Below, one piece after another: positions 16,684-45,466 of a DNA stretch of 54,810 bases. Under the pieces are notes generated by a model. That model was given only the letters and a program-made list of their open reading frames with translations, did no database searches and had not been told where the DNA came from. Position numbers and translations under genes: made by a program. This stretch comes from Maritimibacter sp. (GTDB lineage Bacteria > Pseudomonadota > Alphaproteobacteria > Rhodobacterales > Rhodobacteraceae): NCBI GenBank assembly GCA_002695005.1, contig NZNT01000004.1, positions 1-54,810 of the forward strand. Reading direction: 5' to 3'. Positions within the stretch are counted from its first letter, which is position 1. Every line of letters begins with the position of its first letter.

Positions 16684-17853
16684 ATGAAACTCAATCTCAC
16701 CGGCCTTTCGGCCGCGGCTGTCCTGTTGCTTGGAACGAGCCTCGGCGCACAAGCCGATACGATAAAAGTGGGCGTGGTCGCGCCGTTTTCCGGCCCCTTC
16801 GCTCTCTACGGCAAACAGTTCCAGGAAGCGATCGAAGTCTATCAGGCTCAGAACGGCACCACCGCGGGCGAGCATGACATCGAATTCGTCTACAAGGATT
16901 CCGGCGGCCCGAACCCGGATCAGGCCCGCGCGCTGACGCAGGAGCTGCTCATCAAGGACCAGGTCGACTACCTTGCGGGCTACGTCTTCACGCCGAACGC
17001 GTTGGCCGTCGCGCCGCTGCTCGACCAGTCCGAGACGCCGCTCGTCATCTTCAACGCCGCCACCAGCGCTATCAACGCCCAGTCGGATTTCTATCTGCGC
17101 ACGTCCTATACCCTGTGGCAGGTCTCCGCGCCGATGGCCGAATGGGCCTATGAGCAGGGCATCCGCGAGGTCGTGACCACCGTCACCGATTACGGTCCCG
17201 GCATCGATGCCGAGAACGCCTTTGTCGCGGCCTTTGAAGAGGCGGGGGGCACGATCCTGGATTCGATCCGGATGCCGCTGTCGACCACCGACTTCACACC
17301 CTTCATCCAGTCGATCCGCGAGCAGTCGCCGGACGCGCTGTTCACTTTCCTGCCGGGCGGCCCCCCGACTTTCGGCTTCACCAAGACCTATAACGAGAAC
17401 GGCCTGCGCGACGAAGGGATCATGTTCCTTGGCACCGCCGAAACGGAGGAGTCGAACCTTCAGGCGTTCGGGGATGCGGCCATCGGGCTGACCACCGCCT
17501 ATCACTATTCCGCCGACCACGACTCGGACCTGAACCGCGAATTCATCGCCAAGAATACCGAGATGCATCCGGACGCGGTGACGAACTGGGCGACCATCGG
17601 CGCCTATGACGGCACCCATGTCATCTACGAGATGGTCAAGAATGCAGGCTCGGACGGCCCGGCGGCCGTGGAAAGCGTGCTTGGCATGGAATGGGAAAGC
17701 CCGCGCGGCCCGCTGACCATGGACCCCGAGACCCGGACCGTGATCCAGAACGTCTATATCCGCGAAGTTGAGCGGGATGATGAGAGCGGGATGCTGGTCA
17801 ACCGCGAAAAGGGCGTGATCGCCACCGTGGGCGACCTCGGCTGGCCCGAGTAA
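16684..17853 (+). CDS. ABC transporter substrate-binding protein, Liv family
   Basis: The 389-residue protein begins with a typical signal peptide ending near AQA-D at about residue 25, followed by the TIKVGVVAPFSGPFA start of type I periplasmic binding proteins of the branched-chain amino acid family. An AGGGAGGATA ribosome binding site precedes the ATG. Members of this family also bind aromatic acids such as coumarate and benzoate derivatives. Because it is encoded opposite an aryl O-demethylation cluster and shares its operator motif, an aromatic acid ligand is more likely than leucine, but this is inference. Confidence 0.9.
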   Translation: MKLNLTGLSAAAVLLLGTSLGAQADTIKVGVVAPFSGPFALYGKQFQEAIEVYQAQNGTTAGEHDIEFVYKDSGGPNPDQARALTQELLIKDQVDYLAGYVFTPNALAVAPLLDQSETPLVIFNAATSAINAQSDFYLRTSYTLWQVSAPMAEWAYEQGIREVVTTVTDYGPGIDAENAFVAAFEEAGGTILDSIRMPLSTTDFTPFIQSIREQSPDALFTFLPGGPPTFGFTKTYNENGLRDEGIMFLGTAETEESNLQAFGDAAIGLTTAYHYSADHDSDLNREFIAKNTEMHPDAVTNWATIGAYDGTHVIYEMVKNAGSDGPAAVESVLGMEWESPRGPLTMDPETRTVIQNVYIREVERDDESGMLVNREKGVIATVGDLGWPE

Positions 17854-17911
17854 GACTGACGGCGGGCGGCCCTTCGGGTCGCCCGCGTCCCTGAACACGA
17901 CGCAGGCACAC

Positions 17912-18775
17912 ATGTCGCTTATCCTCAACATCCTGATCGACGGGGTCGCCTATGGCATGATCCTGTTCATGATCTCGGTCGGCCTGTCGGTGACGATGGG
18001 CCTGATGCGGGTCATCAACCTTGCGCATGGCGGGTTCGCATTGGTGGGCGGGGCCGTGGGGCACTGGCTTATCGCCGATCAGGGGATGAGCTTCTGGCTC
18101 GCCGCGCCGCTGGGCATCGCAGGTGCCGTCGCGCTCGCCTGGCCGCTGGAACGGCTGATCTATCGCCGGATCTACGGCTTCGGGGATCTGCAACAGGTGC
18201 TGGCCACCATCGGCCTGACCTTCCTGATGATCGCGACCGTGAACCGTCTGCTCGGCTCATCGCTGCTCGCCCTGCCGCTGCCCGAGGTGCTGGCCCAGAG
18301 CGTCGACCTCGGCTTCCGGACCCTGCCCCTGCACCGGCTGATCGTCATCGGCGTCGGGATCGCGGTGATCGCGGGGCTCTGGCTCCTGATCGACCGCACC
18401 CGGTTCGGCATCCGCCTGCGCGCCGCCGTCGACAACCGCGCGACCGCGTCCGCCATCGGGATCAACACCGGGCTAATCTATTCCGTCACCTTCTGCCTGG
18501 GCGCGGGCCTCGCCGCGCTCGGCGGTATCCTGGGGGCCGAGATGATGCCGATCGAGGCCTATTACCCGTTGCGCTACATGGTGCTGTTCCTGATCGTCGT
18601 CGCGGTGGGCGGCATGGGGTCGATCTCGGGCTCGTTCGCGGCTGCGCTGGGACTTGGCATCCTCGACACCGCGACGCGCTACCTCGTGCCCGACTTCGGG
18701 ACGATCTTCTTCTACGGCTGCATCATCCTGTTCCTGGCACTCAGACCCAACGGATTGTGGGGGCGCACGGCATGA
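17912..18775 (+). CDS. livH: ABC transporter permease, LivH type
   Basis: The 287-residue inner-membrane protein has the hydrophobic profile of LivH permeases, with a start MSLILNILIDGVAYGMILFM and the conserved GLMRVINLAHGGF segment near residue 30. It lies 58 bases after the binding protein and overlaps livM by four bases (ATGA). It forms the channel with LivM for the substrate captured by the 16684 protein. Confidence 0.93.
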   Translation: MSLILNILIDGVAYGMILFMISVGLSVTMGLMRVINLAHGGFALVGGAVGHWLIADQGMSFWLAAPLGIAGAVALAWPLERLIYRRIYGFGDLQQVLATIGLTFLMIATVNRLLGSSLLALPLPEVLAQSVDLGFRTLPLHRLIVIGVGIAVIAGLWLLIDRTRFGIRLRAAVDNRATASAIGINTGLIYSVTFCLGAGLAALGGILGAEMMPIEAYYPLRYMVLFLIVVAVGGMGSISGSFAAALGLGILDTATRYLVPDFGTIFFYGCIILFLALRPNGLWGRTA

Positions 18776-19758
18776 GCGACACGACCATCACCCCCAAACG
18801 TACGGGCCGGATCGCGGGTGTTCCGTTCCTCGGCGAAGCGATCCTGATCGCTGTCGTCATCGCGGCCTATTTCCTGTTTCCCTACAACCTCGCCTTCCTG
18901 ACCCGCATCCTCATCATGGTGCTGCTGGTCCTGTCGCTCGACCTCGTTCTGGGGTTCGCGGGCATCGCCACGCTGGGACAGGCTGCGATGTATGGCACCG
19001 GGGCCTATGCCGCGGGGCTGTTCGCGGTTCATGTGACCGCCGCGCCCCTGCCTGGTCTGGTCGTGGGTGCGCTGGCGGGGGCCGTGCTCGCCTTCGTCTC
19101 CGGCCTCGTTCTGATGCGCGCGCGGGGCCTCACGCTCATCATGCTGACCATCGCCGTCGCCTCCATCTGTCACGAGATCGCGAACAAGGCGCGTGATGTG
19201 ACCGGCGGCGCAGACGGGTTGCGCGGTATCCGGATGGAGCCCGTGGTGGGGCTCTTCGAGTTCGATTTCATCGGCAAGACGGCCTATTGGTACGTCTTCG
19301 TCGTGGTCTTTGCGGTGTTCCTGTTGCTCAAGCGGCTGGCCAATGCGCCGCTGGGGCTGAGCCTCAAGGGCATCCACGAAAGCCCCGAGCGCATGGCGGC
19401 CATCGGCGCGCCTGTCTACCGGCGGCTCGTGCTGGCCTATACGCTGGGCGGGGGTATCGCCGGGGTCGCGGGGGCGCTCGCCGCACAGGTGACGCAGCTC
19501 GTGAGCCTTGAGGTCTACAGCTTCAACCTGTCGGCCGAGGCGCTCATCATGCTTATCCTCGGCGGCACCGGGCGGCTTTACGGTGCGGTGATCGGGACGG
19601 TCATCTTCATGACGGTGCATCACGTCGCCGCCGCGGCCGATCCGTTCAACTGGCTGTTCCTGATCGGTCTGATGGTTCTGGGCGTCGTGTTCTTCCTGCC
19701 AAGGGGGCTGTCCCACCTGCCCACGGCCCTCGCGCGTCTGATGCGGGGGCGGACATGA
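18772..19758 (+). CDS. livM: ABC transporter permease, LivM type
   Basis: The 328-residue permease contains the GFAGIATLGQAAMYGTGAY signature of LivM proteins near residue 60 and about eight or more membrane segments. The ATG at 18772 overlaps the livH stop codon and was preferred over a GTG 15 bases upstream because ATGA coupling is the rule in this operon. Its end overlaps livG by four bases. Confidence 0.93.
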   Translation: MSDTTITPKRTGRIAGVPFLGEAILIAVVIAAYFLFPYNLAFLTRILIMVLLVLSLDLVLGFAGIATLGQAAMYGTGAYAAGLFAVHVTAAPLPGLVVGALAGAVLAFVSGLVLMRARGLTLIMLTIAVASICHEIANKARDVTGGADGLRGIRMEPVVGLFEFDFIGKTAYWYVFVVVFAVFLLLKRLANAPLGLSLKGIHESPERMAAIGAPVYRRLVLAYTLGGGIAGVAGALAAQVTQLVSLEVYSFNLSAEALIMLILGGTGRLYGAVIGTVIFMTVHHVAAAADPFNWLFLIGLMVLGVVFFLPRGLSHLPTALARLMRGRT

Positions 19759-20504
19759 GCGGGCTTCAGGTACGCGGCCTCAACAAGAGTTTCGGCGGGC
19801 TGACGGTCGCGCAGGACATCCACCTCGACCTGCCGCCCGGATCGCGCACCGCGCTGATCGGGCCGAACGGGGCAGGCAAGACGACGTTCTCGAACCTCAT
19901 CACCGGCATTCTCACCCCAAGCGCGGGCGAGATCACGTTGGACGGACAGGACCTGCGGGCGTTGAACGAGGCGCAGCGGGTCAAGGCAGGCGTCGCCAAG
20001 ACATTCCAGATCACCACCCTGTTTCGCGATCTCACGGTGCGCCAGAACCTTCGCCTGGCCCAACAAGAGCGCGACGAACGGGGACGCGCCTGGTTCCGGC
20101 GGGCCGATAGCTGGGGCGAGGCCGAGGACGAGATCGACGCGCAACTCGGCGCATTCCGCCTGATGGATATGGGCGACAAGCGGGTCGATGACCTTGCCTA
20201 TGGACAGCAGCGACTGGTCGAGATGGCGATGACGCTGATGCTGAAGCCCCGTGTTCTGATCCTCGACGAACCGGCGGCGGGGGTGCCGTCTTCGGACAGC
20301 CACCTCATCACCGATGCGATCGAGGCATTGCCCGACGACCTTGCCGTGCTCATCATCGAGCATGACATGAAGCTCGTCTTTCGCGTTGCGCGGTCGATCA
20401 TCGTGCTGGTGAACGGCGCGATCCTGACCCAGGGCACGCCGGAGGAGATCGCGGCGAACCAGCAGGTGCGGGACCTGTATCTCGGAGGGCGCAATCATGG
20501 CTGA
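19755..20504 (+). CDS. livG: ABC transporter ATP-binding protein, LivG type
   Basis: The 249-residue ATPase has Walker A GPNGAGKT near residue 37, a signature-region variant LAYGQQR near residue 152 and Walker B VLILDEPAAG near residue 172. The YGQQR form instead of LSGGQ is normal for LivG. It pairs with LivF to power the importer. Its end overlaps livF by eight bases. Confidence 0.94.
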   Translation: MSGLQVRGLNKSFGGLTVAQDIHLDLPPGSRTALIGPNGAGKTTFSNLITGILTPSAGEITLDGQDLRALNEAQRVKAGVAKTFQITTLFRDLTVRQNLRLAQQERDERGRAWFRRADSWGEAEDEIDAQLGAFRLMDMGDKRVDDLAYGQQRLVEMAMTLMLKPRVLILDEPAAGVPSSDSHLITDAIEALPDDLAVLIIEHDMKLVFRVARSIIVLVNGAILTQGTPEEIAANQQVRDLYLGGRNHG

Positions 20505-21210
20505 TCCGATCCTGTCGCTGGACAACGTTGTGGCGGGCTATGGCGACACGACCGTTCTGCATGGCGTGAGCTTCGACGTGCCCAAGGGCCAGCGGCTTGC
20601 CATCATCGGGCGCAACGGGGTGGGCAAGACCACGCTTCTGGGCACGATCATGGGGCTCACGCAGCTTCATTCCGGCCACGTCGCGATGGGCGGGCGGGTC
20701 ATCGACCGGGTGGCGCCGCACCGGCGGGCGGGCACCGGGCTTGGGCTCGTGCCGCAGACGCGCGACATCTTCCCGTCCCTCTCGGTCGAGGAGAACCTGC
20801 TCTCCGGCCTGCGCGGCGATGCCACGCTGGAGGAGGCCTTTGCGCTCTTCCCTCGGCTCAAGGAGCGGCGGCGCAACGGCGGCGGGCAGTTGTCGGGTGG
20901 CGAGCAGCAAATGCTTGCCATCGCGCGCACGCTCATGGGGCGACCCGAGGTGCTGATGCTGGACGAACCGCTCGAAGGGCTGGCCCCGGTGATCTGCGAC
21001 ATGCTGATGGAGACGTTCGAGACGCTGTCCGCCGACGGGCGCCACACGCTCCTCCTCGTCGAACAGCACACCGAACTCGCGCTCGACTTCGCCGACCGTG
21101 TCATCATCCTCGACGCCGGCGAGATCGTGCAGGACGCGAGCGCCGAGGCTCTGCGGGCCGATCCGTCGATCATCGAACGCCACGTCGGCGTCGGACTGGC
21201 CGGCGCATGA
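20497..21210 (+). CDS. livF: ABC transporter ATP-binding protein, LivF type
   Basis: The 237-residue ATPase has Walker A GRNGVGKT near residue 36, the signature LSGGEQQ near residue 132 and Walker B VLMLDEPLEG near residue 152. It is the last gene of the five-gene transporter operon. The MarR gene begins 78 bases later on the same strand and may be read through from this operon. Confidence 0.94.
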   Translation: MADPILSLDNVVAGYGDTTVLHGVSFDVPKGQRLAIIGRNGVGKTTLLGTIMGLTQLHSGHVAMGGRVIDRVAPHRRAGTGLGLVPQTRDIFPSLSVEENLLSGLRGDATLEEAFALFPRLKERRRNGGGQLSGGEQQMLAIARTLMGRPEVLMLDEPLEGLAPVICDMLMETFETLSADGRHTLLLVEQHTELALDFADRVIILDAGEIVQDASAEALRADPSIIERHVGVGLAGA

Positions 21211-21288
21211 GGCCCGCAACCTTGACTTGGCGTGGCGGAGCGGACAGGTGGATGTCGTTAACGGACGAACAAGACAGGACGTGCCGCA

Positions 21289-21795
21289 GTGAGAGGTGAC
21301 CGGACAGTGTGTCCCGAGGGCCGGATTTCAAGCCCGACCCGCCGCAACAAGGACGGGCGGGATATCGTCGATATCACCACCTATATCCCCTATTTTTTGT
21401 CGTCCGTGAACAACGCGCTCTCGCTGGGCGCGTCATCGGAATATCTGAAAACCTTCGGGATCGGCATTGCCGACTGGCGCGTGATTTCCATGCTGGCGAT
21501 CGAGCCGCGCATTCCCGCCGCGCGGATCGTCGAGGTCATCTCGATCGACAAGGGCGCGACGAGCCGGTCGCTCAACAAGCTGGCCGAGTTGGGGCTCGTG
21601 GACTTCGAAGCGATGGAAAGCGATCCCCGGCGACGGACCTGGGAGCTGAACGCCGCCGGATACGAGTTGCACGACCGAATCCTCGCCGCTGCGCTGGAAC
21701 GCGAGAAAAAGCTGATCGAAGGGGCCGACCCGGATGATCTGGAGGCGTTCCTGCGGGTGATCCGCCTGATGCGAAAGAACGTGGACCGGCTCTAG
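21289..21795 (+). CDS. MarR-family transcriptional regulator (module A)
   Basis: The 168-residue protein has the MarR winged-helix layout: a dimerisation helix, then PAARIVEVISIDKGATSRSLNKLAELGLV as the helix-turn-helix region (about residues 75-105), then a wing with the DPRRRTWELN segment near residue 110. The start is taken as GTG at 21289; a start some residues downstream is possible. MarR proteins next to aromatic catabolic genes usually repress until an aromatic acid or its CoA ester binds. It lies between the Liv operon and the convergent ligase and O-demethylase operon. The palindromes at 16594-16626 and 25262-25309 are its likely targets. Confidence 0.88.
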   Translation: MRGDRTVCPEGRISSPTRRNKDGRDIVDITTYIPYFLSSVNNALSLGASSEYLKTFGIGIADWRVISMLAIEPRIPAARIVEVISIDKGATSRSLNKLAELGLVDFEAMESDPRRRTWELNAAGYELHDRILAAALEREKKLIEGADPDDLEAFLRVIRLMRKNVDRL

Positions 21796-21830
21796 CGCTT
21801 TCGCCACGGACCGGGGCCCGCGGCGACCCG

Positions 21831-21879
21831 CCGGGGGGCCAGCCCCCCGGACCCCCCGGGATATTTCAAGACCGGAAAG
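21831..21879. repeat. Intergenic hairpin repeat, copy B
   Basis: A perfect 8-bp stem (CCGGGGGG at 21831-21838 and CCCCCCGG at 21843-21850) with a 4-base loop is followed by ACCCCCCGGGATATTT and then ACCGGAAAG. It matches the layout of copy A at 6428-6477 and likewise lies between convergent gene ends (marR and the thioesterase gene), where it probably stops transcription from both sides. Confidence 0.7.
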
Positions 21880-21883
21880 AGGC

Positions 21884-22303
21884 TCAGGTTTCGCCCTTGA
21901 AGCGGGCCACGAGTTCGGCGGGGATCGGGGCGGACTTGATACCGCGTTCCGGGTCTTTCATTGTCCAGACACGCGTTTCCGTGCCTTCGACACAGACCTT
22001 GCCGTCCTTGGTGAGCGTGTGGCGGATGTCGAAACTGCGCTCTTTCACTTCGGCGATTTCGGTCGTGATCTCGACGTCGTCACCATAGCGGCAGGGCGCC
22101 TTGAACGTTGCGCGGGTATCGACCAGCGGGCAGCCCGCGGCGTCGAACCGCGCGAGCATCTCCTGCTTGGGCCAGCCCGCGGCCTCATACAGCATCGTGG
22201 TGCCGTGATCGAACCAGCGAAAGAACTGCGGGTTGAAGACGATCCCGGCAGGGTCGCAATCGCCCCATTCGACGCGGCGTGTCAGGGTGCTCGACAACAT
22301 CAC
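21884..22303 (-). CDS. Acyl-CoA thioesterase, 4-hydroxybenzoyl-CoA thioesterase type
   Basis: The 139-residue hot-dog-fold protein contains WGDCDPAGIVFNPQFFRWFD near residue 13. This is very close to the active-site segment of the Pseudomonas 4-hydroxybenzoyl-CoA thioesterase, whose catalytic Asp is the one in CDPAG. It would hydrolyse an aroyl-CoA or related thioester in the cytosol. Its start overlaps the stop of the upstream CoA ligase by four bases, so the two are translationally coupled. Having ligase and thioesterase as neighbours suggests either a CoA-ester step that ends in the free acid or a salvage role. Confidence 0.88.
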   Translation of the reverse strand: MMLSSTLTRRVEWGDCDPAGIVFNPQFFRWFDHGTTMLYEAAGWPKQEMLARFDAAGCPLVDTRATFKAPCRYGDDVEITTEIAEVKERSFDIRHTLTKDGKVCVEGTETRVWTMKDPERGIKSAPIPAELVARFKGET

Positions 22304-23718
22304 TTGTTCCTCTCGTCATAGACCCGCTTGGCCTTCATTTCCGACTTCGGAAGGCTGTCCGGTGCCGCCACCTCGACCGCGCAGCGTATTTCGCAACGGG
22401 TGCGGATCGCTTTCGCCACGTCGCCGGCCACGTTGCCGTCAGGGTGTTCGACCACCACGGTCATCACGTCCAGCCCATCCTCCTGAGTGGTCAGTCGGAT
22501 CTGGAATTCGTCGCCCGTTCCGGGATAGGCGCGCACGGCTTCCTCGATCTGAACCGGGAAGAACTTGATACCGCGCAGGTTGATGAGGTCATCCGAGCGG
22601 CCCGTCATGCATCCCATGCCGCGCACATGGTTGCGCCCGCAGGCGCAGGGCTCATGGCTGAGGCGGGTGTAATCACCGACGAGGAACCGAAGCTGGGCCG
22701 AGCTTTCCGAGTTCAGGTTCGTGCAGACCGTCAGCCCGCGCTCGCCCTCGGCCACCGGGGTGAGGCCGTTCGGATCGACCGTTTCCCAGACCTGAATGTC
22801 CTCCATCAGGTGAATGAACGGCTCATCCCCCTCCTGGTATTCCGGGCAGGAATAGCCGCCGCAATGGGGCGAAGCCTCGGTGCAGCCATAGAATTCGAGC
22901 GACTTGGCGCCCCAAAGGTCCTGAATCCGCTCCAGCGTGCCCGCGACACCCGAAAACGGCTCGCCCCCCGTGACCAGCCATTTGACCGAGGTCTTGGCGG
23001 GGTCCTTGCCCATGTCCTGCATCACCCGGCCGAGGTAGAGCAGGTAGGACGGCGTGCAGATCAGCGTGGTCGGGTTGAACCGTTCGATGAGCGACGCGCG
23101 GGCATGGCCGTCCATCCCGCCGCCCGGCACGACAGGCAGACCCATCTTGGCCAGCGTGTATTGCACGCCCCAAGCAAAGACATGGGGGCCGAAGCCGGTC
23201 ATCGGCAGGCCCACGTCGCCCTTGCGCAGACCGCCGGAATAAAGCGCGCGGGCGTTCGCCTGCTCCCAATACTGACGGTCGAAATGGGTGTAGCGAAACA
23301 CGCGCGGCGTGCCGGTGGAGCCGGAGGAGGAAAACAGCATCCAGCCCCGGTCGGCCCATTCAGCCTCGCCACAAGTGGTGTAGGTGCCATAGGGCGGATG
23401 CGCCTCGGCGTCCTCCATCATCTCCTGCTTGGTCACGACCGGCCAGTTGGCGATCATGCTGTCCACGTCCCTGAGGTCCGTGGGCGCGACGCCCAGCTTG
23501 TCGAAACGGCGACGGTAGAAGTCGCTGTTTTCATATAGAAACGGTGCGACGGCCGCGATCTTTTCATCCTGCACCGCGCGGATCTGGTCGCGCGACCATG
23601 TGTCCTTGTCCGACCAGTAATCCTCGTTCAGCGGCGCGTCGCGGTCTTCGTGGTATTTCTCCAGAACCGCTTTCCACGCCGTGCGGGTCTCATCCGCCCG
23701 TGTCGTCGCTGTCGTCAT
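22300..23718 (-). CDS. Phenylacetate-CoA ligase family protein (aryl-CoA ligase)
   Basis: The 472-residue protein has the adenylate-forming P-loop motif SSSGSTGTPR near residue 130, a YGCTEASPHCGG segment in the A5 position, and the SDDLINLRGIKFFPVQIEE segment typical of PaaK-like ligases near residue 368. It would activate an aromatic or aryl-alkanoic acid to its CoA ester with ATP. It lies 49 bases downstream of the O-demethylase gene and overlaps the thioesterase gene. The exact acid cannot be read from sequence. A CoxG-like or paa gene context is absent, which argues against simple phenylacetate degradation. Confidence 0.85.
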   Translation of the reverse strand: MTTATTRADETRTAWKAVLEKYHEDRDAPLNEDYWSDKDTWSRDQIRAVQDEKIAAVAPFLYENSDFYRRRFDKLGVAPTDLRDVDSMIANWPVVTKQEMMEDAEAHPPYGTYTTCGEAEWADRGWMLFSSSGSTGTPRVFRYTHFDRQYWEQANARALYSGGLRKGDVGLPMTGFGPHVFAWGVQYTLAKMGLPVVPGGGMDGHARASLIERFNPTTLICTPSYLLYLGRVMQDMGKDPAKTSVKWLVTGGEPFSGVAGTLERIQDLWGAKSLEFYGCTEASPHCGGYSCPEYQEGDEPFIHLMEDIQVWETVDPNGLTPVAEGERGLTVCTNLNSESSAQLRFLVGDYTRLSHEPCACGRNHVRGMGCMTGRSDDLINLRGIKFFPVQIEEAVRAYPGTGDEFQIRLTTQEDGLDVMTVVVEHPDGNVAGDVAKAIRTRCEIRCAVEVAAPDSLPKSEMKAKRVYDERNK

Positions 23719-23767
23719 GTCGTCCTCCCTCGACGAAACCCCGGCGGCGTGCCGCCGGGGTCATCCA

Positions 23768-25222: not shown

Positions 25223-25261
25223 GGGCTTCCTCCCTTCATGACGTGACAGCAGACGATATGC

Positions 25262-25309: not shown

Positions 25310-25339
25310 ACGAGGCGCGGACTTTTTGCCGGTCTTGCG

Positions 25340-27854: not shown

Positions 27855-27919
27855 GGGTCCGTCCTGCGCTGCCTCGCCACGCGCATAGCGCATTTCGCAC
27901 GCCACGGAAAACCGCAGAG

Positions 27920-33532: not shown

Positions 33533-33549
33533 TCGGGGTCGAGTTTTTC

Positions 33550-37192: not shown

Positions 37193-37195
37193 CGG

Positions 37196-37711
37196 TTACT
37201 CCCCCCGTTCCGGCACGTCGGACAGATGTCCGAACGGACGCTGACCGTTCATCAGCATGAGCGCACAGCGCACGAGGATCAGGGCCATGCCCACAGGCAG
37301 CGGCAGGAACACCGCGAACCCCTGAGGCGTGCGCAGGGATGAGCCGGAGCGTTCGTCCAGCAGGTTCGCGAATTCATAGGCCTGCCAGCCATAGACCAGC
37401 ATGACGGCGATAAAGGCGATGGCGAAGATCGACATGGCCCAGCCGAGCACACGGCGGGCGCGCGGGCTGAGAGCCGCGATGAAGACCTCGGTGTGCAGGT
37501 GGCGATCCTCCTGCACGATGGCGGCGCCCGCGAGGACGGTCGCCCAGATGATGAAGTAGATCGACACTTCGGTCGCCCAGTCGACCGCGTTGCCCGGCGA
37601 CAGTACGCGCAGCAGCCCGCCGCCCAGGAAGATCGCCAGTGCGATGATCAGCAGCAAGCCGATGAGAAAGGTCTCGATGCGAGACCATATCGTGAGAATA
37701 CGGGTAATCAT
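37196..37711 (-). CDS. dctQ: TRAP transporter small permease (DctQ), transporter 1
   Basis: The 171-residue protein has four hydrophobic segments and the WATVLAGAAIVQEDRHLHTEVF pattern near residue 55 that is common in DctQ subunits. It lies 54 bases after dctP and three bases before dctM. It forms the membrane complex with DctM. Confidence 0.9.
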   Translation of the reverse strand: MITRILTIWSRIETFLIGLLLIIALAIFLGGGLLRVLSPGNAVDWATEVSIYFIIWATVLAGAAIVQEDRHLHTEVFIAALSPRARRVLGWAMSIFAIAFIAVMLVYGWQAYEFANLLDERSGSSLRTPQGFAVFLPLPVGMALILVRCALMLMNGQRPFGHLSDVPERGE

Positions 37712-37765
37712 GGGTGACCTGTCGGTTGCGTTGCCCCGCGTCCCTGCAGGGCAACGCGTTTTTTC

Positions 37766-38779
37766 TTACATGCTGCCGTCGAGCGCTTCGGTGACGCGCG
37801 CGATGAAATCGGCATCCATACCGCCGTCAGAGACGATCGAGTCCTGAAGGTCGAGAAGCTCCTGTCGCTTCGCCGCAACCATGTCGAGATCGGCATCGAG
37901 CACGGTCACACCGTTGGCGGCGAGCGTCTCGCGCGCCTTGGCCATTTCGTCCGCAGCGTAGCCGGCGGCCCATTCGCCGACCTCTGTCCAAGTGTCACGG
38001 ATGATGGCCTGCTGCTCGTCCGTCAGCTTGTCCATCGTGCGTTGCGACACGACCGGCATGTAAAAGCCCCATCCCGCATTGTCCGCGAAGATGTGCTTGA
38101 TCCCGGATTCCCACAGCTTGCCGCCGATGATGGTCAGCTCGGTCACGCCGCCCATCCCGTCGATCTGGCCTTGCGAGAGCAGAAGCGGGATCTCGGACCG
38201 GCGCGCGGCCTGCGGGGCGCCGCCCATTTCCTTGAGAACGCCGACCACGACCGGCGAGGGCGGCGTGGCGAGCTTGAGCCCGGTCAGGTCGTCATAGCTT
38301 TCGACGACCGTTTCGGTGGTGAAGGCGGTATGCTGCGGCGCGAAGAGAAAGGCGGCGCCCGGCACGGCGATGCCTTTCTCGGCGAGCATATCGCTGACCT
38401 CACCCGCGATCGGCCCTTCAAGAACCGCCTGCGCTTCTTCCGCCGTGCGCCCGAAGAACACCGGCAGGATCGAGAACGACAGGTTCGGCTCGAACTGGCT
38501 CATGGTCACGTTGGCCTGGATCGACATATCCAGCGCGCCCGAGGCGAGAGCGCGGATCGCGTCAGCCGACTTGTACAGCTGCGCGGCCGGGAAGACCTCG
38601 ACGGTCATTTCGCCGCCCGATGCCTCTTCGATGGCCTCGGCCCAGCGCTCGGCGGCGAGGTTGCGCACATGGCCCGGCGGGGTTTCCACCGAAAGGCGCA
38701 GCTCGGTTTCGGCCATAACGGCGCTGCCCGCCGTGGCCATGAGGGCGCCAAGCACCGTCGTCTTGATGAAGTCCTTCAT
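37766..38779 (-). CDS. dctP: TRAP transporter substrate-binding protein (DctP), transporter 1
   Basis: The 337-residue protein starts at 38779 after a strong GGGAGGAG site and has a signal peptide ending AVMA near residue 23. It shows the DctP fold, with EVFPAAQLYKSADAIRALASG near residue 61. At the position of the usual carboxylate-binding Arg, the segment reads GLKLATPP, placing Ala171 where Arg is expected. The ligand may therefore lack the normal carboxylate contact, for example a neutral phenolic or terpenoid compound. An in-frame upstream extension was not used because it lacks a signal peptide and overlaps the leader. Confidence 0.9.
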   Translation of the reverse strand: MKDFIKTTVLGALMATAGSAVMAETELRLSVETPPGHVRNLAAERWAEAIEEASGGEMTVEVFPAAQLYKSADAIRALASGALDMSIQANVTMSQFEPNLSFSILPVFFGRTAEEAQAVLEGPIAGEVSDMLAEKGIAVPGAAFLFAPQHTAFTTETVVESYDDLTGLKLATPPSPVVVGVLKEMGGAPQAARRSEIPLLLSQGQIDGMGGVTELTIIGGKLWESGIKHIFADNAGWGFYMPVVSQRTMDKLTDEQQAIIRDTWTEVGEWAAGYAADEMAKARETLAANGVTVLDADLDMVAAKRQELLDLQDSIVSDGGMDADFIARVTEALDGSM

Positions 38780-38831
38780 AGTCTCCTCCCTGAAGGTTTG
38801 AAAAAACGCCGGGGTTGTATCCCGGCTTGGG

Positions 38832-38960
38832 TTATTCGGTCGTCTCGCAGGCCACGGATCCCGTGCCTGTCGCGTGTATGATGAGGACAAGAGGCGCGTG
38901 AGACCCGTCCGGCGTTTGCCCGGAACCGGCGGCAAAAATGCCTTCAAGCGCATGCGCCAT
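38832..38960 (-). CDS. Possible 42-residue leader or small protein upstream of dctP
   Basis: A short frame begins with ATG at 38960, seven bases after a very strong GGGAGG site, and ends with TAA at 38832, 52 bases before dctP. Its product begins MAHALEGIFAAGSGQ and ends SVACETTE. No known family is recognised. The strong ribosome binding site so far from dctP (about 185 bases) is hard to explain unless this frame, or another start at 38965, is translated. It could be a leader peptide or merely chance. Confidence 0.35.
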   Translation of the reverse strand: MAHALEGIFAAGSGQTPDGSHAPLVLIIHATGTGSVACETTE

Positions 38961-38980
38961 CTCATCTCCTCCCTATTTAT

Positions 38981-39137
38981 GTATCTTTGTGAACTATTTT
39001 CGGCCTGTCAATGACAGAATGCCGCAGCGCATGTGGGGCCTGAGCGAACCCGGGCGCCAGCGCGCCTTAAGGCGCATCAACGCCGAGCCCATGGCCAGAC
39101 TGTGAGCCACGCTGACCATCTTGTTCACTCGATGAAC
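38981..39137. promoter_or_regulatory. Divergent promoter region with MarR-type operators
   Basis: The 430-base gap 38780-39209 separates dctP from a divergent MarR gene. A perfect palindrome, GTTCA-CTCGA-TGAAC, lies at 39123-39137 and overlaps TATTAT, a good -10 for the MarR gene. A related half-site, ATAGTTCAC on the minus strand (38997-38989), lies just downstream of a perfect minus-strand -35 box TTGACA at 39011-39006. One protein bound at both could repress both directions. Confidence 0.55.
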
Positions 39138-39209
39138 TATATTATCGCCTCCTCGGCTTGCAATACGAAGCCGAATTGGGGAGTCTGTGGGGAAGTTGGA
39201 GGACCATTC

Positions 39210-39707
39210 GTGAACGACACCAGCCAAACCGGCAAGAACCGGATCATACTCGGTCCGCTTTCGTCCGACCTGCCTTTCATGATCCGCAACCTCCATTCGA
39301 TGCTGCGCTCGGTCGGCGTGTCGATCCGTGCGCCCCTGAACCTCGAATCGGGCTCCATCGGCATCCTCTGCCTTATCTGGGTCAATCCCGGCATCTCGCA
39401 GAACGATCTGGCCGAAAACCTTGCGATGAAGAAGTCGGCCATCGCCAAGCTCGTCAAATCCCTGGAAGCGCAGGGTTATCTGGAACGGCAGCGCGTCGCG
39501 GGCGACCGGCGCATGAACGCGATCACCCTGACCTCCGAGGGCCACAAACTGGTCGCCGCGATCCGTGAGTTGTCGGTGCCGCTGAACCAGGAAGTCACCG
39601 AAGGAATCTCCCGCGAAGACCTCGCGGTGTTCTTCCGCGTGCTGGAAAAACTCCACGCCTCGCTGTCTTCGCGCGTGTCGATCCAGCCATCTTCCGGGGC
39701 GGACTGA
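39210..39707 (+). CDS. MarR-family transcriptional regulator (module C)
   Basis: The 165-residue protein starts at GTG 39210, six bases after GGAGGA; the in-frame upstream region is not MarR-like. The winged helix lies at about residues 60-100, with SQNDLAENLAMKKSAIAKLVKSLEAQGYL as the DNA-binding helices and ERQRVAGDRRMNAITLT as the wing. It is transcribed away from the TRAP-P450 operon and probably controls it through the operators at 38981-39137. Confidence 0.88.
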   Translation: MNDTSQTGKNRIILGPLSSDLPFMIRNLHSMLRSVGVSIRAPLNLESGSIGILCLIWVNPGISQNDLAENLAMKKSAIAKLVKSLEAQGYLERQRVAGDRRMNAITLTSEGHKLVAAIRELSVPLNQEVTEGISREDLAVFFRVLEKLHASLSSRVSIQPSSGAD

Positions 39708-39783
39708 CCCCCCGACATCTTGATCGGGCACATGGGGCACCCCTATCTGACACCCCAGACATCGAAACATCGAGGCAGGACAG

Positions 39784-40152
39784 ATGCGCAACGCGGCCCT
39801 CATGCTCGGCATCATCGGCGGACTGATCGCCATGGTCGTGGGTTTTTTCAACTACGGCTACACCGAGGTCGTCCGGAACAACGTCGAGATCGGCGAGGCG
39901 TTCGGATTCGTCCAGAACGAGGAATTCATCCGGATGGCGAGCTTCATGGCCCCGCTTCTGGCCATCGCCGGGGGCGCCATGGCCAAGGTGCGCGCGCTCT
40001 GGGGTGGTATTCTCCTGCTGCTCGCGGGTGCGATGATGTATTACGCCTTCGGCTTCGGGGTCTTCACAATGTTCCCCATCGGCTTCTGCCTCGTGGGCGG
40101 ACTGCTGGCCATCGCCGCCGGGCGTCCGGACGAGCCAAAGGCGCACTTCTGA
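39784..40152 (+). CDS. Small membrane protein of unknown function
   Basis: The 122-residue protein has hydrophobic segments at about residues 4-24, 49-65, 70-90 and 92-110, so it probably spans the inner membrane four times. The N-terminal part holds a short polar loop with VVRNNVEIGEAFGFVQNEEF. No family was recognised with confidence; small roseobacter membrane proteins of this kind are common. It stands alone, 76 bases after a MarR gene and 104 bases before the second TRAP operon. Confidence 0.7.
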   Translation: MRNAALMLGIIGGLIAMVVGFFNYGYTEVVRNNVEIGEAFGFVQNEEFIRMASFMAPLLAIAGGAMAKVRALWGGILLLLAGAMMYYAFGFGVFTMFPIGFCLVGGLLAIAAGRPDEPKAHF

Positions 40153-40166
40153 CGGGCTTCACCGGT

Positions 40167-40236
40167 GCAAATCTCACGAATCCGTTTGATTTGCGCATTT
40201 TGTTTGATATCCATCATTATTGAGATCCGGCAAATC
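40167..40236 (+). promoter_or_regulatory. Phased GCAAATC repeats upstream of TRAP operon 2
   Basis: GCAAATC occurs at 40167-40173, inverted (GATTTGC) at 40188-40194 and direct again at 40230-40236, with start-to-start distances of 21 and 42 bases, two and four helical turns. GTTTGAT also repeats at 40184 and 40202. The 104-base gap ends in GGGAGGATATC before dctP. These look like binding sites for a dimeric regulator, perhaps the MarR protein encoded at 43170. Confidence 0.5.
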
Positions 40237-40256
40237 GGACTCACAGGGAGGATATC

Positions 40257-41276
40257 ATGAAAAAGACCACCGTCGCGCTTGGCGCGATCCTGACCGCAAT
40301 GGTCCCCGCAACCCTCGCCGCGCAGGAAGTCACCCTGCGTCTGTCGCATTGGGTGCCGCCGACCATCGCCCCCGCATCGAAGGGCATCCAGCCCTGGGCC
40401 GAAGCCGTGATGGAGGCCTCGGACGGCCGCATCCAGATCGACATTTTCCCGGCCCAGCAGCTTGGCCGTGCGCCCGACCACTATGACATGGCCAAGGACG
40501 GAATCGTCGACCTGTCCTATGTGAACCCCGGCTATACCGCAGGCCGTTTCCCGATCTATGCCGCGACTGAGATCCCCTTCATGGTCTCCGACAGCGTTCA
40601 GGGCGCGATGGCGATCCATGAATGGTATGCCGAATACGGCGCGCAGCAGGAGATGTCGGACGTGAAGGTCTGCTTCGTGCATCCCCACGCCCCCGGCGCG
40701 CTGCACACGCAGGAAACCGTGACGAGCCCCGAGGGTATATCCGGCAAGAACGTGCGCCCGGCCCACGCCACCATGGCGCGCTTCGTCTCGCTTCTCGGCG
40801 GTGGCCCCGTTCAGGTGCCCGCCCCGGAAGTGCGCGAAGCTCTGTCCAAGGGCACGGCCGAAGCCGTCACCTTCCCCTGGGGGTCGATGTACGACTTCAA
40901 ACTGACCGAGGAAGTGCCTGTCCACCTCGACATGCCGTTCTATCTCTCGGCACAGGTCATGGTGATGAACAAGGACAGCTACGAGGGCCTTTCGGACGAG
41001 AACAAGGCCGTGATCGACGATCACTGCACGCCCGAATGGACCGGCAAGGTCGCGCAGGGCTGGTACGAGGACGACATGGCCGCGAAGGAACGGCTCATGG
41101 CCGACGACAGCCAGACGTTCAACACGCCCACCGAAGAAGAGGTCCAGGCATGGCGTGACGCCGCGGCCCCGCTGATCGACGAGTGGAAGGCTGCCGTGAG
41201 CGACAAGGGCGGCGATGCCGACGCGATCCTCGAGGCTTACATGGCAGCGCTTCAGGCGCGTAACGCCGACTACTGA
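40257..41276 (+). CDS. dctP: TRAP transporter substrate-binding protein (DctP), transporter 2
   Basis: The 339-residue protein has a signal peptide ending near LAA-Q at residue 22 and then EVTLRLSHWVPP, the usual start of mature DctP proteins. Arg167 in GKNVRPAH lies where family members bind the ligand carboxylate, so an organic acid ligand is likely. This differs from the DctP of transporter 1. It leads the dctPQM-marR-ligase operon. Confidence 0.93.
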   Translation: MKKTTVALGAILTAMVPATLAAQEVTLRLSHWVPPTIAPASKGIQPWAEAVMEASDGRIQIDIFPAQQLGRAPDHYDMAKDGIVDLSYVNPGYTAGRFPIYAATEIPFMVSDSVQGAMAIHEWYAEYGAQQEMSDVKVCFVHPHAPGALHTQETVTSPEGISGKNVRPAHATMARFVSLLGGGPVQVPAPEVREALSKGTAEAVTFPWGSMYDFKLTEEVPVHLDMPFYLSAQVMVMNKDSYEGLSDENKAVIDDHCTPEWTGKVAQGWYEDDMAAKERLMADDSQTFNTPTEEEVQAWRDAAAPLIDEWKAAVSDKGGDADAILEAYMAALQARNADY

Positions 41277-41338
41277 GCCTGAAACCCGGCGCGGGGGCTC
41301 GTGGTCCCCGCGCCACCTTTTCCGTCCGGGAACACATC

Positions 41339-41881
41339 ATGGATAGCAGCCCCGCCCCCCGGCCCGTGCGCCGGGTGATCCGGTTCATCGAACGCATCGC
41401 CGGCGTGATCCTTGGCCTCGTCACGATCCTCATCGTGGCCTCGGCCATCGGGCGTTACGGCTTCGCCCGTCCGATCCCGGACGCTTTCGACGTCTCGCGC
41501 CTGATGCTCGGCATCGCCATCGCCTGGGGCATGGCCTCGGTCGGTTATCACGGCAGCCACATCAAGGTGGACCTGTTGGCACAGGCGCTGCGCCCCGCCG
41601 CGCGCAAATGGCTCAACCTCTTCGCCTGGGCGGTGCTCTTCGCCTTCACCGCCGTGATGACGTGGAAAATCTTCGGACGGGTCATGTCCACGATGGGCGG
41701 CGGCGACTCCACGATGGACCTGCGCCTGCCGCATTGGCCCTTCTTCCTCGCCATATGGGCGGGGCTCATCGCGGCGCTCTTCGCCATCGCTGTGCGCATC
41801 TGGCTCATCGCCCGCTCGAACAGCGATCTGGGCGAGTTCGACGGGATCGACGAAAAGCTCATCAAGGACCAGAAGAAATGA
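41339..41881 (+). CDS. dctQ: TRAP transporter small permease (DctQ), transporter 2
   Basis: The 180-residue protein has four hydrophobic segments, with IAWGMASVGYHGSHIKVDLLAQ-type DctQ sequence near residue 60. Its stop overlaps the dctM start (ATGA). It lies 62 bases after dctP and forms the membrane complex with the next gene product. Confidence 0.9.
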   Translation: MDSSPAPRPVRRVIRFIERIAGVILGLVTILIVASAIGRYGFARPIPDAFDVSRLMLGIAIAWGMASVGYHGSHIKVDLLAQALRPAARKWLNLFAWAVLFAFTAVMTWKIFGRVMSTMGGGDSTMDLRLPHWPFFLAIWAGLIAALFAIAVRIWLIARSNSDLGEFDGIDEKLIKDQKK

Positions 41882-43170
41882 GCAACGAGCTTATCGCAGG
41901 TGGCGGCTTCGTCATCCTCTTCGCCCTCATGGCCGTGCGTGTGCCCATCGGGATCGCCATGGGCATCGTCGGCGTGGGCGGGTTCGCCAGCGTCGTGGGG
42001 CTCAAACCCGCGCTGAACCTGCTGTCCAATTCGCCCATCGCGGCGATCACCGATTTCAACCTCACCCTCATTCCGTTCTTCATCCTGATGGGCGTGCTGG
42101 CCACCAATTCCGGCATGTCCTCGGAGCTGTTCCGCGCGGGACGCGCCTGGCTGGGAGGTTTCAAGGGCGGCCTCGGCCTTGCCTCCGTCGGGGCCTGCGG
42201 CGGCTTCGCGGCAATCTGCGGCTCCTCGGTCGCGACGGCTGCGACCATGACCAAGATCGCCTATCCGGAGATGAAAAAGGCAGGCTACAGCGACGCCTCG
42301 GCCACCGGTATCATCGCGGCAGGCGGCACGCTGGGCATCCTGATCCCACCCTCGGTCGTCCTCGCGATCTACGGCTTCATCACCGAAACCGACATCGGCA
42401 CGCTGTTCATCGCGGGCATCGTGCCCGGCATCCTCGCGCTGCTTCTCTACATGCTCACCGTGCGGATTTGGTACGGTCGTCAGCTCCCCGCCGCCGAGCC
42501 CTTTCGGCTGAGCGAAGGGCTCTCGGCGCTGCGCGGCGTCTGGGCCGTGGGCCTGCTGTTCATCGCCGTGATCCTGTCGATCTATTTCGGCATCGTCACG
42601 GCGACCGAGGCGGCCGCGGTCGGCGCGCTCCTCACCGCACTCATCGGGATCGCGCGCGGTCGGCTGAACATGTCCAGCCTGCTCGACAGCTTGGTCGAGG
42701 CGCTGCGTACCTCGGTCGCGATCTACACTGTCCTGATCGGGGCCACCCTGTTCGGCTACTTCCTCGCCATCACCCAGGTCCCGCAGGACATCACCAGTTT
42801 CCTGACCGAGATCGGCGGCGGGCGCTACGGCACGCTGGCCCTCATCCTGCTGTTGTTCTTCGTGATGGGCTGCTTCCTTGACGCGATGGCGATGATCATC
42901 CTGATGGTTCCCATCGTCTTCCCGGTCGTGACCGCGCTTGGCTTCGATCCGGTGTGGTTCGGCGTCATCATCGTGATGACGGTCGAACTCGGCCTCATCA
43001 CGCCGCCGGTCGGCATGAACGTCTATGTCATCAATTCGATTGCCAGCCGGGTGAGCCTGACCACGATCTTCAAGGGCGTCACGCCCTTCGTGGTGATCGA
43101 CATCTTCCGCCTCATCCTGCTTATCGCCTTCCCCGCGCTCGTGCTGTTCCTGCCGTCGAGCATGAACTGA
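41878..43170 (+). CDS. dctM: TRAP transporter large permease (DctM), transporter 2
   Basis: The 430-residue membrane protein starts at the ATG that overlaps the dctQ stop. It has the DctM signatures IIAAGGTLGILIPPSVVLAIYG near residue 145 and ELGLITPPVGMNVYVINSI near residue 370. The gene ends in TGATG, where the last A starts the MarR gene, so the regulator is translationally coupled to the transporter. Confidence 0.94.
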   Translation: MSNELIAGGGFVILFALMAVRVPIGIAMGIVGVGGFASVVGLKPALNLLSNSPIAAITDFNLTLIPFFILMGVLATNSGMSSELFRAGRAWLGGFKGGLGLASVGACGGFAAICGSSVATAATMTKIAYPEMKKAGYSDASATGIIAAGGTLGILIPPSVVLAIYGFITETDIGTLFIAGIVPGILALLLYMLTVRIWYGRQLPAAEPFRLSEGLSALRGVWAVGLLFIAVILSIYFGIVTATEAAAVGALLTALIGIARGRLNMSSLLDSLVEALRTSVAIYTVLIGATLFGYFLAITQVPQDITSFLTEIGGGRYGTLALILLLFFVMGCFLDAMAMIILMVPIVFPVVTALGFDPVWFGVIIVMTVELGLITPPVGMNVYVINSIASRVSLTTIFKGVTPFVVIDIFRLILLIAFPALVLFLPSSMN

Positions 43171-43658
43171 TGGGCGATACCGGGATCATCCGCGACGTGG
43201 CCGATCTCACCGAACCTGACGTGCTGGCACACGCGGTCTCCTACCGCATCCGGCTGCTTCAGATCGCCTCCTACAAGGCGTTCGAGCAGAAGGCGACCGG
43301 CCACGGCTCCGCCCCGCGCTACTTCGGGATGCTGAAGCTTGTCGAGGCCAACCCCGGCATCACACAGACCCGGCTGGCGGAGGCGATCTTTCTCGACCGT
43401 TCCTCGCTTGTCCCGATCCTCGACACGCTGACACGCGAAGGCTGGATCGAGCGGCGCAAGGCCCCCGAGGACCGGCGCGTGCGCCGGGTCCACCTGACCC
43501 CGGACGGCGCGCAAAAGCTCTCGGCACTCGAGGTCGAAGTGCGCGCGCACGAAACGGCGCTGACCGACGGGCTGAGCCAGGAGGACAAGGACCGGCTTCT
43601 CGTCCTGCTCGACCGGCTGGATACGAACCTGCGACGACTGCACCAGGATCAGGCATGA
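43170..43658 (+). CDS. MarR-family transcriptional regulator (module D)
   Basis: The 162-residue protein starts at ATG 43170, sharing one base with the dctM stop. It contains TQTRLAEAIFLDRSSLVPILDTLTREGWI as the winged-helix core (about residues 65-95) and the wing ERRKAPEDRRVRRVHLT. Its last codons overlap the acyl-CoA ligase start by four bases. A MarR locked between a transporter and a CoA ligase suggests that the CoA ester made by the ligase is the effector, as in FerR-like regulators; this is inference. Confidence 0.88.
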   Translation: MGDTGIIRDVADLTEPDVLAHAVSYRIRLLQIASYKAFEQKATGHGSAPRYFGMLKLVEANPGITQTRLAEAIFLDRSSLVPILDTLTREGWIERRKAPEDRRVRRVHLTPDGAQKLSALEVEVRAHETALTDGLSQEDKDRLLVLLDRLDTNLRRLHQDQA

Positions 43659-45466
43659 CCATCAGGACCGCATCGGACATCGCCACGCTCGAAGCGCGGG
43701 GTTTCGACACTGTCTTCCCACATCAAACCCCGTGGGACATCCTGCGCCATCAGGCCGCGACCCGGCCCGACGCGGTCGCGATCCGCTATATCCACGATGC
43801 CGCCGACCCCAGCCGTGACGAAGCCGTCACCTATGCCGATTTCGCCAGCCGTGTCATGGGGGCCGCACGGCTGTTTCGCGCGAATGGCGTGACGGCGGAG
43901 AAATCCGTGGCGATCCTCACCCAGCACACCGTATCCGCCCAGACCGCCCTGTGGGGCGCGCAGGTGGCGGGGCGGGCCTGTCCGATCAACCCGATGCTCA
44001 AACCAGATCACATCGCATCGCTGATCCGCGCGGCGGATGCCGGAGCGGTTGTCATCATGGGGGTGAACGGCGAGCTGGACTATTGGTCGGCGCTCGTGCC
44101 CGCCCTGCGGGCCGAAGGGATCGACCTGCCGATTTTCGCTTGCGACGCTGACGCGGACAGCCCCGGCGCCGATGGCGTCTTCGAGGAGCGGATCGCCCGC
44201 CCCGGCGAAGACATCGTGCCGGAAGGCGACCAGACCGCGCTCGCCGCCTTCTATCATACCGGCGGCACCACCGGCGCGCCGAAGCTCGTGCAGCACATGC
44301 GGCTGAACGAAGCGCATGTCGCCCGTTCCTGCGCGCTCATGCACGACCTTGGTCCCGAGGACGTGGTGGTGAACGGCTTTCCGCTGTTCCACGTCGCGGG
44401 GGCTTTCGTTTATGGCCTGTCCACCATCTCCGCCGGCGGCACGCTCGTCGTGCCCGGTCGGCTCGGGATGCGCAACGCGGCGTTCATGGGGTCGATCTGG
44501 CAACAGGTGGAGCGCCTTGGGATCACCGTTCTCGGTGTCGTGCCGACGATCCTCGCGACGTTGAAAGCCACGCCCGTCGACGCGGACATCTCGACGCTGA
44601 AATGGCTCCTTACCGGCGGCTCTCCCCTGCCGACCGAGCTTGCCGAGGCGGCAGAGGCGCACACGGGCGTCCCGGTGCGCAACATCCTCGGCATGACGGA
44701 ATGCGCGGGGGCCATCGCGGTGGAGCCGGTGCAGGGCTCGCGCACGCCCCTGTCCTGCGGCTTGCGCATGCCGTTCTCCGAGATCGCGATCTTTGGCGAG
44801 ACCGAGGGGGACGCGGACCCGGCCAAGCCCCTTGCACCGGGCGAAACCGGCATCGTCGCCTTGCGCGGCCCCAATGTCGCTGCGGGCTACTCCGACCCCG
44901 CACGCAATGCGGGCACGTTCCTCGATGGTGGTTGGCTCGTCTCCGGCGATCTGGGGAGGGTCGACGACGCGGGGCGGCTGTTCATCGTCGGGCGCAAGAA
45001 GGACGTGATCATCCGGGGCGCCCACAACATCGACCCACAAATGATCGAAGACGCGCTGTTGGCGCACCCGGACGTTCTCAACGCCGCTGCCGTGGGTATG
45101 CCAGATGCCTATGCCGGCGAACTCCCCGTCGCCTTCGCCGAAACCCGGGCGGGCGCGACAGTGACCGAAGCCGCGCTCATCGACTTCCTGCGCGACCGGA
45201 TCGAAGACCCGGTGGCCCTGCCGAAACGGGTCGGGATGGTCGAAGCCATGCCGCTCACGCCAGTCGGCAAGATCTTCAAGCCGACCCTGCGCGCCGAAGC
45301 GATCCGCTGGGCCATTGCGGCGGCTGGCGAGACGCTCGGTGTGAGCCCCGACGTGCGCGTGGATGACAAGCTCGCCACGACCGTCGCGGTGCCGGCGGAC
45401 AGGTTTGGTGAGATGCGCGACGCACTCGCGGGGATGCCGATCACCCTCACGGTCGTCGCGATCTGA
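43655..45466 (+). CDS. AMP-forming acyl-CoA ligase
   Basis: The 603-residue enzyme has the adenylation P loop YHTGGTTGAPK near residue 205, NILGMTECAG near residue 345, the A8 hinge SGDLGRVDDAGRLFIVGRKK near residue 430 and the catalytic Lys region TPVGKIFKP near residue 540. It would activate the acid brought in by TRAP transporter 2. It is the last gene of that operon and overlaps the MarR gene. It converges on rplA, separated by a terminator. The acid is unknown; an aromatic or medium-chain acid is plausible. Confidence 0.9.
   Translation: MTIRTASDIATLEARGFDTVFPHQTPWDILRHQAATRPDAVAIRYIHDAADPSRDEAVTYADFASRVMGAARLFRANGVTAEKSVAILTQHTVSAQTALWGAQVAGRACPINPMLKPDHIASLIRAADAGAVVIMGVNGELDYWSALVPALRAEGIDLPIFACDADADSPGADGVFEERIARPGEDIVPEGDQTALAAFYHTGGTTGAPKLVQHMRLNEAHVARSCALMHDLGPEDVVVNGFPLFHVAGAFVYGLSTISAGGTLVVPGRLGMRNAAFMGSIWQQVERLGITVLGVVPTILATLKATPVDADISTLKWLLTGGSPLPTELAEAAEAHTGVPVRNILGMTECAGAIAVEPVQGSRTPLSCGLRMPFSEIAIFGETEGDADPAKPLAPGETGIVALRGPNVAAGYSDPARNAGTFLDGGWLVSGDLGRVDDAGRLFIVGRKKDVIIRGAHNIDPQMIEDALLAHPDVLNAAAVGMPDAYAGELPVAFAETRAGATVTEAALIDFLRDRIEDPVALPKRVGMVEAMPLTPVGKIFKPTLRAEAIRWAIAAAGETLGVSPDVRVDDKLATTVAVPADRFGEMRDALAGMPITLTVVAI

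Follow-up and report, generated by a model that had tools for sequence, protein, structure and literature searches.

The rplA-rplJ seam of Rhodobacteraceae as a probable integrase-free insertion hotspot, and the composite catabolic block that it holds in Maritimibacter sp.

Integrase-free hotspots, in which recombination takes place at the flanking core genes, have been established within species (Oliveira et al. 2017, PMC5635113), and the stepwise break-up of gene clusters, by insertion and then by disconnection, has been reconstructed in Gammaproteobacteria and Bacilli (Brandis, PMC8046335). The rplKAJL-rpoBC cluster was described in 2015 as the most conserved of 38 proteobacterial operon blocks, with splits that fall mostly between rplKA and rplJL-rpoBC (PMC4481853). 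The present work concerns an interruption of this cluster in a draft genome of Maritimibacter sp. (family Rhodobacteraceae; 30 contigs, G000 in our set), where about 29 kb of catabolic, transport, and regulatory genes lie between rplA and rplJ. The window, i.e., the whole stretch of DNA that was analysed, is the entire contig C4 of this genome (NZNT01000004.1, 54,810 bases). The explanation that we prefer, with a probability of roughly 0.7, is that the family has, at the junction (or seam) of rplA and rplJ, an integrase-free insertion hotspot, marked by a terminator, in which circulating catabolic modules are gathered.

This seam resembles the hotspots of Oliveira et al. in that the same two core genes enclose changing contents and mobility genes are not needed, double recombination at the flanks having been proposed in that case (PMC5635113). 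Those hotspots were delimited inside single species, in a paper whose main text does not use the word “ribosomal”, whereas the contents vary here across genera, inside rplKAJL-rpoBC, at a site with an open state that carries a terminator. As in the break-up described by Brandis, insertions between operons and a later full disconnection may be recognised, given that filled and fully separated states both exist in this family; on the other hand, the insertions counted there were under 10 kb (PMC8046335), whereas the present one is 29 kb, co-linear, and recorded with its terminator state. The rplKA/rplJL split, rare in the material of PMC4481853, is common in this family. Hotspots and the splitting of this seam are already published, and the terminator pattern and the shared cargo are the additions made here; in the literature searched, as far as its available text extends, neither a terminator-marked seam nor the same module in two seams was found. 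The breakdown of the most conserved operon cluster of bacteria is usually inferred from ancient events. A single family holds the closed, open-and-empty, filled, and fully separated states together, with a hairpin that tracks the open state, and, as all of the states stand side by side, the order of the steps becomes directly testable.

The genes of the window follow, on the minus strand, the order secE, nusG, rplK, rplA, the block, rplJ, rplL, rpoB, rpoC, rpsL, rpsG, fusA, and tuf. The first-pass annotation, made from the letters of the window, had described a catabolic block of about 28.8 kb that splits rplKA from rplJL, and the block is real: rplA and rplJ lie on the same strand of one contig, without N, at a distance of 29,336 bp, and 27 genes were counted between 16684 and 45466, although these limits must be corrected to 16196-45528 for the full interval. 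On the rplJ side, the alignment with seven congeners breaks off at 16387-16418, and towards rplA it ends at 45479-45528. As had been claimed, the edges show no recognised sign of a mobile element, i.e., no repeat of at least 25 nt and no tRNA were found there (the single tRNA predicted by ARAGORN, a tRNA-Trp at 51321-51396, lies 5 kb beyond rplA), and no integrase or transposase was recognised among the named genes of the block through Pfam, NCBIfam, and structure searches or the translations.

The family was surveyed through 198 genera drawn evenly, of which at least 135 had both genes and 123 had both on one contig and strand; the gene surveys used the best 150 of the 184 genomes matching rplA and the best 150 of the 181 matching rplJ, with distant members under-represented. 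Among these 123 genera, 60 had less than 400 bp between rplA and rplJ and 63 had more, including two in which the genes lie far apart and in reversed order, and the largest co-linear gaps were the 29.3 kb of this genome and then the 20.8 kb of G103. Separation of the two genes was seen by coordinates in G041 and G207, and in four other genomes (G073, G174, G175, G202) they occupy separate contigs, with over 100 kb clear to each side. In the 14 genomes from other families of the class that had both genes, subtracted by hand from the survey, the gap was below 500 bp in 12 and 1.2 kb in one, and in the last the genes were on opposite strands, 10.9 kb apart.

The other junctions of the cluster served as controls in 60 of the 123 genera, which were hand-picked in favour of long contigs rather than drawn at random, and the counts were compared by Fisher tests. 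A gap of at least 1 kb was found between rplA and rplJ in 32 of 60 genera, between rpoC and rpsL in 37 of 39, between nusG and rplK in 11 of 60, and between rplL and rpoB in 4 of 60. Gene pairs inside operons were kept together (rplK-rplA 0/60, rplJ-rplL 0/60, rpsL-rpsG 0/37, rpsG-fusA 0/20, rpoB-rpoC 0/58, secE-nusG 1/59), the exceptions or near-exceptions being the single secE-nusG gap above 1 kb and one rpoB-rpoC gap of 953 bp, the largest at that junction. The thresholds used throughout (300, 500, and 1000 bp) were chosen after viewing the distribution. The limits of the transcription units are those generally known for the ribosomal cluster and, because the control junctions inside these units rarely open, the insertions fall mainly at the seams between them. 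Given this, the premise of the first-pass annotation that rplK-rplA-rplJ-rplL is among the most conserved gene orders fails at the rplA-rplJ step, where the two genes are often apart in this family and their adjacency is unsafe as a marker; the split is exceptional in its size, rather than in its occurrence at what is a recurrent insertion site.

The open state of the seam is accompanied by a terminator-like hairpin. In the window, rplA had been said to end in its own terminator, and a hairpin running into a T tract does follow it (Table 1); RNA folding confirms the stem (z -2.85), and the standard terminator scan reported none, a miss that could be due to a stem capable of reaching into the T run. 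When a hairpin with a T run no more than 130 nt after rplA is taken as the criterion, it is present in none of the 21 intervals below 300 bp, in all six of 300-500 bp, and in 35 of the 41 above 500 bp, i.e., in 41 of the 47 longer than 300 bp, with seams of 226-284 bp lacking it and those of 334 bp or more mostly having it. Under shuffling, 0.25 hairpins would be expected among the 27 intervals below 500 bp and 0.65 among the 41 longer ones; closed seams are mostly filled by the rplJ leader, which leaves less room for a hairpin. The six short intervals that bear one have no room for a sizeable gene, and represent either a step that precedes insertion or the scars that remain after loss.

The contents of the open seam vary from one genome to another. 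Leaving aside this window and G103, a simple codon-composition script, which is not a gene finder, called 59 filler proteins in 38 of the 40 intervals of at least 500 bp, and these fell into 29 groups, 18 of them single and none present in more than seven of the 38 genomes with called fillers. Over the 25 of 40 Pfam families covered, the fillers included glycosyltransferases (7), Hint-domain proteins (5), cytidylyltransferase-like proteins (5), DMSP-lyase cupins (4), and RTX repeats (3), and no integrase or transposase. The 20.8-kb insert of G103 places NiFe hydrogenase subunits with hypF, hypC, and hypB between rplA and rplJ. The intervals of the seven congeners hold 1.2-2.8 kb of other sequence, with a DMSP-lyase-family cupin in three, an Rrf2 regulator and a reductase in three, and, in HTCC2654, a Flp-like and a glycosyltransferase-like protein identified by reading only, with no Pfam match. 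The genes of the block were seen neither in these seven intervals nor in the other annotated ones, and therefore the arrangement is not an old and fixed one, the alternative against which the first-pass annotation had proposed to compare relatives. One of the DMSP-lyase-family cupins (L070) is weakly similar to DddQ.

The block itself is composite, made up of several modules, three of which are carried elsewhere by most congeners. Each of modules A, B, and C has its own MarR regulator, and their markers (desA, a P450, and acs, respectively) were each found in six of eight Maritimibacter genomes, this one included, and lie outside the rplA-rplJ seam in the other genomes that carry them. The tested module proteins are 74-95% identical to those of congeners, and the RND exporter found no match at E 1e-200 in the seven congeners. 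No pair compared (among this genome, G001, G005, G006, G007, and HTCC2654) agrees in what surrounds module A, except that module B and one further stretch are common to G005 and HTCC2654, at other distances, and that G007 has a related TRAP transporter beside module A. In G005 (taken as M. dapengensis), module C lies between rpoC and rpsL, which is another seam of the same ribosomal cluster.

With both protein sets of module A, this genome falls beside G001, G006, and G007, and its pairing with HTCC2654 (G003) is rejected (p 0.0006 and 1e-8), while rpoB DNA joins G005, G006, and G007 and rejects the clade of this genome with G001, G006, and G007 (p 0.0001), a clade that was named after the identities were known; rpoB itself gives weak support (68/85) for joining this genome to HTCC2654. 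On this evidence, module A has moved between species or been exchanged. The insertion proposed at first is real, lineage-specific, and without recognised mobility genes, but it is several modules and not one island; the proposed search for the block in other genomes recovered its modules separately and in differing contexts, and the proposed tree tests gave the conflict of module A with rpoB. A plasmid origin was sought with one piece each of modules B and A and rejected on these: no record among 345 (module B piece) or 691 (module A piece) contains 80% of the query at a single place, and coverage in the records listed is at most 13% and 58%, respectively.

A possible mode of entry is illustrated by G105, in which the final 274 bp of rplA are repeated, at 96% identity, behind an insert of 2.5 kb; the closest other genera reach 82-88% similarity to it. 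Recombination at the end of rplA would leave such a footprint, as would an integrase that uses it. By eye, the duplicate is followed by a second hairpin. A 24-nt match to an rplA/rplJ copy in G103 is near chance. In the window, the route of entry may likewise have been recombination.

The hotspot reading rests on an interval between the same core genes with contents that differ between genomes, one genome per species having been compared, and on the absence of recognised integrases and transposases from the inserts, in the scope given above. A terminator that insulates rplA, together with a promoter of its own that insulates rplJ, would make insertion tolerable; incoming DNA may then be joined illegitimately or through homologous recombination on the well-conserved ribosomal flanks, and the seam would gather modules over time. 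Turnover of the seam state (at least 1 kb or not) is fast, with at least 19 changes on a rapidly built rpoB tree with 67 rows.

Several observations weigh against this reading. The 19 changes are close to the mean of 21.6 in 200 shuffles (range 16-26) and 23 of the 64 branches of the rpoB tree are weak, and therefore the events at the seam cannot be timed. Six of the 41 long intervals have no hairpin in our own scan, terminators could arise after insertion, and, given the non-independence of related genomes, the well-supported branches leave five to seven independent pairs, for which the sign test falls short of 0.05. The other 42 intervals of at least 500 bp have no partial copy of rplA or rplJ, which leaves the scar of G105 as one in 43. 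In addition, 39 of the 59 filler proteins fall in ten groups that recur in two to seven genomes; with contents that are varied and yet include recurring kinds, inheritance or preference is implied, and part of the seam cargo may be inherited or favoured. Finally, no sigma-70 consensus promoter was found before rplJ, and the rplJ promoter was not located. The leader that had been ascribed to rplJ is borne out by a conserved upstream region that reaches to the alignment break, and not by Rfam, where no L10 leader matched at the gathering score and the only matches in the window were Rhodo-rpoB and tRNA.

In a broader and more tentative version, which we hold to be possible though doubtful, the ribosomal seams of the family are shared docking sites, in which ribosomal genes, whose conservation extends across genera, act as homology arms for the circulation of catabolic and other cassettes, and the gain of a terminator after rplA opens the site. 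If true, module C in the rpoC-rpsL seam of G005 and in the rplA-rplJ seam here would be one cassette moving between docks.

It is less probable, and in our judgement unlikely, that the block goes back to a single chromosomal rearrangement in this lineage, by which one catabolic region reached the seam, with neither hotspot nor interspecies transfer. Modules A, B, and C are genus-typical, and the distance of 57-61 kb between the P450 and desA in both HTCC2654 and G005 means that modules A and B may once have shared one region. One HTCC2654 neighbour of module A is also found here on contig C20, without module A; as the other flank has no clear match, this place is at most a candidate for the emptied old site of the module. 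Such a rearrangement agrees poorly with the differing contexts of module A, the conflict of its tree with rpoB, the position of module C in another seam in G005, and an RND gene without a close congener copy, and it leaves the openness of the seam across the family unexplained.

A genomic island or integrative element that entered through a site-specific recombinase and has since decayed would be very improbable: the rplA duplication of G105 resembles an integrase footprint, but the bare edges of the block, the fillers in which no integrase or transposase was recognised over the 25 Pfam families covered, the congener-like identities of the module proteins, and a block GC of 0.61-0.69, similar to that of the flanks, all speak against it. 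An assembly or binning error that fused a catabolic contig to the ribosomal cluster is the least credible of all, even in a 30-contig draft whose window is a whole contig, since two separate joins would be needed, without N or edge repeats and around genus-typical modules, and a split between rplA and rplJ also occurs in few-contig assemblies (G041 with 4, G207 with 2).

With regard to the function of the cargo, the ABC uptake system, PaaK-like ligase, thioesterase, O-demethylase, and methylene-tetrahydrofolate (THF) reductase proteins suggest, from their predicted families, the use of methoxylated aromatic acids, and the two P450s, two TRAP transporters, three MarR regulators, and acyl-CoA synthetase would fit related substrates. 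Such acids would be taken up, activated with CoA, and O-demethylated, with the C1 unit passing to methylene-THF reductase, and P450 oxidations and efflux may also take part. Nothing found requires the ribosomal position for this function. The O-demethylase-like enzyme, akin to the THF-dependent DesA and LigM, matches the solved LigM structure across residues 46-468 of 484, and scores under both NCBIfam cut-offs (496.7 against 800; 463.9 against 580); it thus falls short of an assignment as syringate or vanillate O-demethylase (DesA, LigM), and no substrate is assigned to it. Elsewhere in the genome, four further O-demethylase relatives at 34-46% identity and two weak ones were noted (contigs C29, C5, and C18). 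At 38802-39191, some relatives carry an additional stretch of about 3.5 kb, missing here, that separates the TRAP genes of module B from its MarR regulator 2; in HTCC2654 this stretch looks, by reading only, like a CoA-transferase and a pair resembling 2-hydroxyacyl-CoA dehydratase.

Table 1. Coordinates of the features in the window (plain numbers) and in related loci (L numbers). Names come from Pfam, NCBIfam, and solved-structure searches; livH, livM, livG, livF, and dctM1 were named from translation only.
Feature	Coordinates	Strand	Basis or remark
rplJ and rplL	15233..16195	-	translation, control junctions
rplJ	15683-16195	-	translation, gap survey
Conserved region upstream of rplJ, left edge of block	16196..16418	-	congener alignment
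Module A: ABC uptake system, MarR regulator, thioesterase, CoA ligase, DesA/LigM-like O-demethylase	16612..25243	mixed	
livK-H-M-G-F type ABC transporter	16684..21210 (starts 16684, 17912, 18757, 19755, 20497)	+	livK Pfam/NCBIfam, others translation
MarR-family regulator 1	21289..21795	+	family search
4HBT/YbgC-type thioesterase	21884..22303	-	family search
PaaK-like CoA ligase	22300..23718	-	Pfam/NCBIfam
GcvT-fold THF-dependent O-demethylase-like, DesA/LigM relative	23768..25222	-	Pfam/NCBIfam, solved structure
Methylene-THF reductase, MetF-like	25340-26323	-	family search
Methylene-THF reductase C-terminal-domain protein	26320-26889	-	family search
Alpha/beta hydrolase	26976..27905	-	family search
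RND exporter	27920-31054	-	family search
Membrane-fusion protein	31069-32250	-	family search
NADPH-dependent oxidoreductase, curcumin-reductase-like	32513..33532	+	Pfam/NCBIfam; below that model's cut-off
Module B: two P450s, TRAP transporter 1, MarR regulator 2	33562..39712		
Two cytochromes P450, module B	about 33550-34700 and 34725-35870		
TRAP transporter 1, module B	35915-38965		dctM1 by translation
MarR regulator 2, module B	39033-39707		
Module C: 122-aa ORF, TRAP transporter 2, MarR regulator 3, acyl-CoA synthetase	39772..45466	+	
122-aa ORF, module C	39784-40152		no family match
TRAP transporter 2, module C	40257-43170	+	
MarR regulator 3, module C	42954-43658 (ORF)	+	
Acyl-CoA synthetase (acs), module C	43655-45466	+	
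Terminator-like hairpin and T tract after rplA, right edge of block	about 45477-45502	-	own scan, RNA fold
rplA, final gene of upstream ribosomal unit	45529..46227	-	translation, gap survey
rplK, upstream core gene	46229..46654	-	translation; rplK-rplA gap at most 8 bp in 60/60 genera
Duplicated 3' end of rplA in G105	L166:874-1147 and L166:3638-3911		274 bp, 96%; RTX-like ORF in insert, by reading
DMSP-lyase-family cupins in rplA-rplJ seam	L070:6478-7197, L067:5182-6000, L071:3038-3775, L208:5298-6059		three congeners and one other genus
NiFe hydrogenase structural and hyp genes in G103	L162:7630-15146 and L163:310-1182		
Module C and two more ORFs between rpoC and rpsL in G005	L262:6125-13088		

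The rpoC-rpsL gap (4332-6535) holds a family-2 glycosyltransferase gene (5328-6365), without similarity to the rplA-rplJ fillers at E 0.001, and a 550-aa ORF on the minus strand (49547-51199), which has no Pfam match and may not be a gene, adjoins the tRNA-Trp. Two proteins are encoded in the nusG-rplK gap (46655-48525), one of the OmdA/DUF1801 type (46813-47505) and one serine-hydrolase-like (47507-48496), the latter named by reading only.

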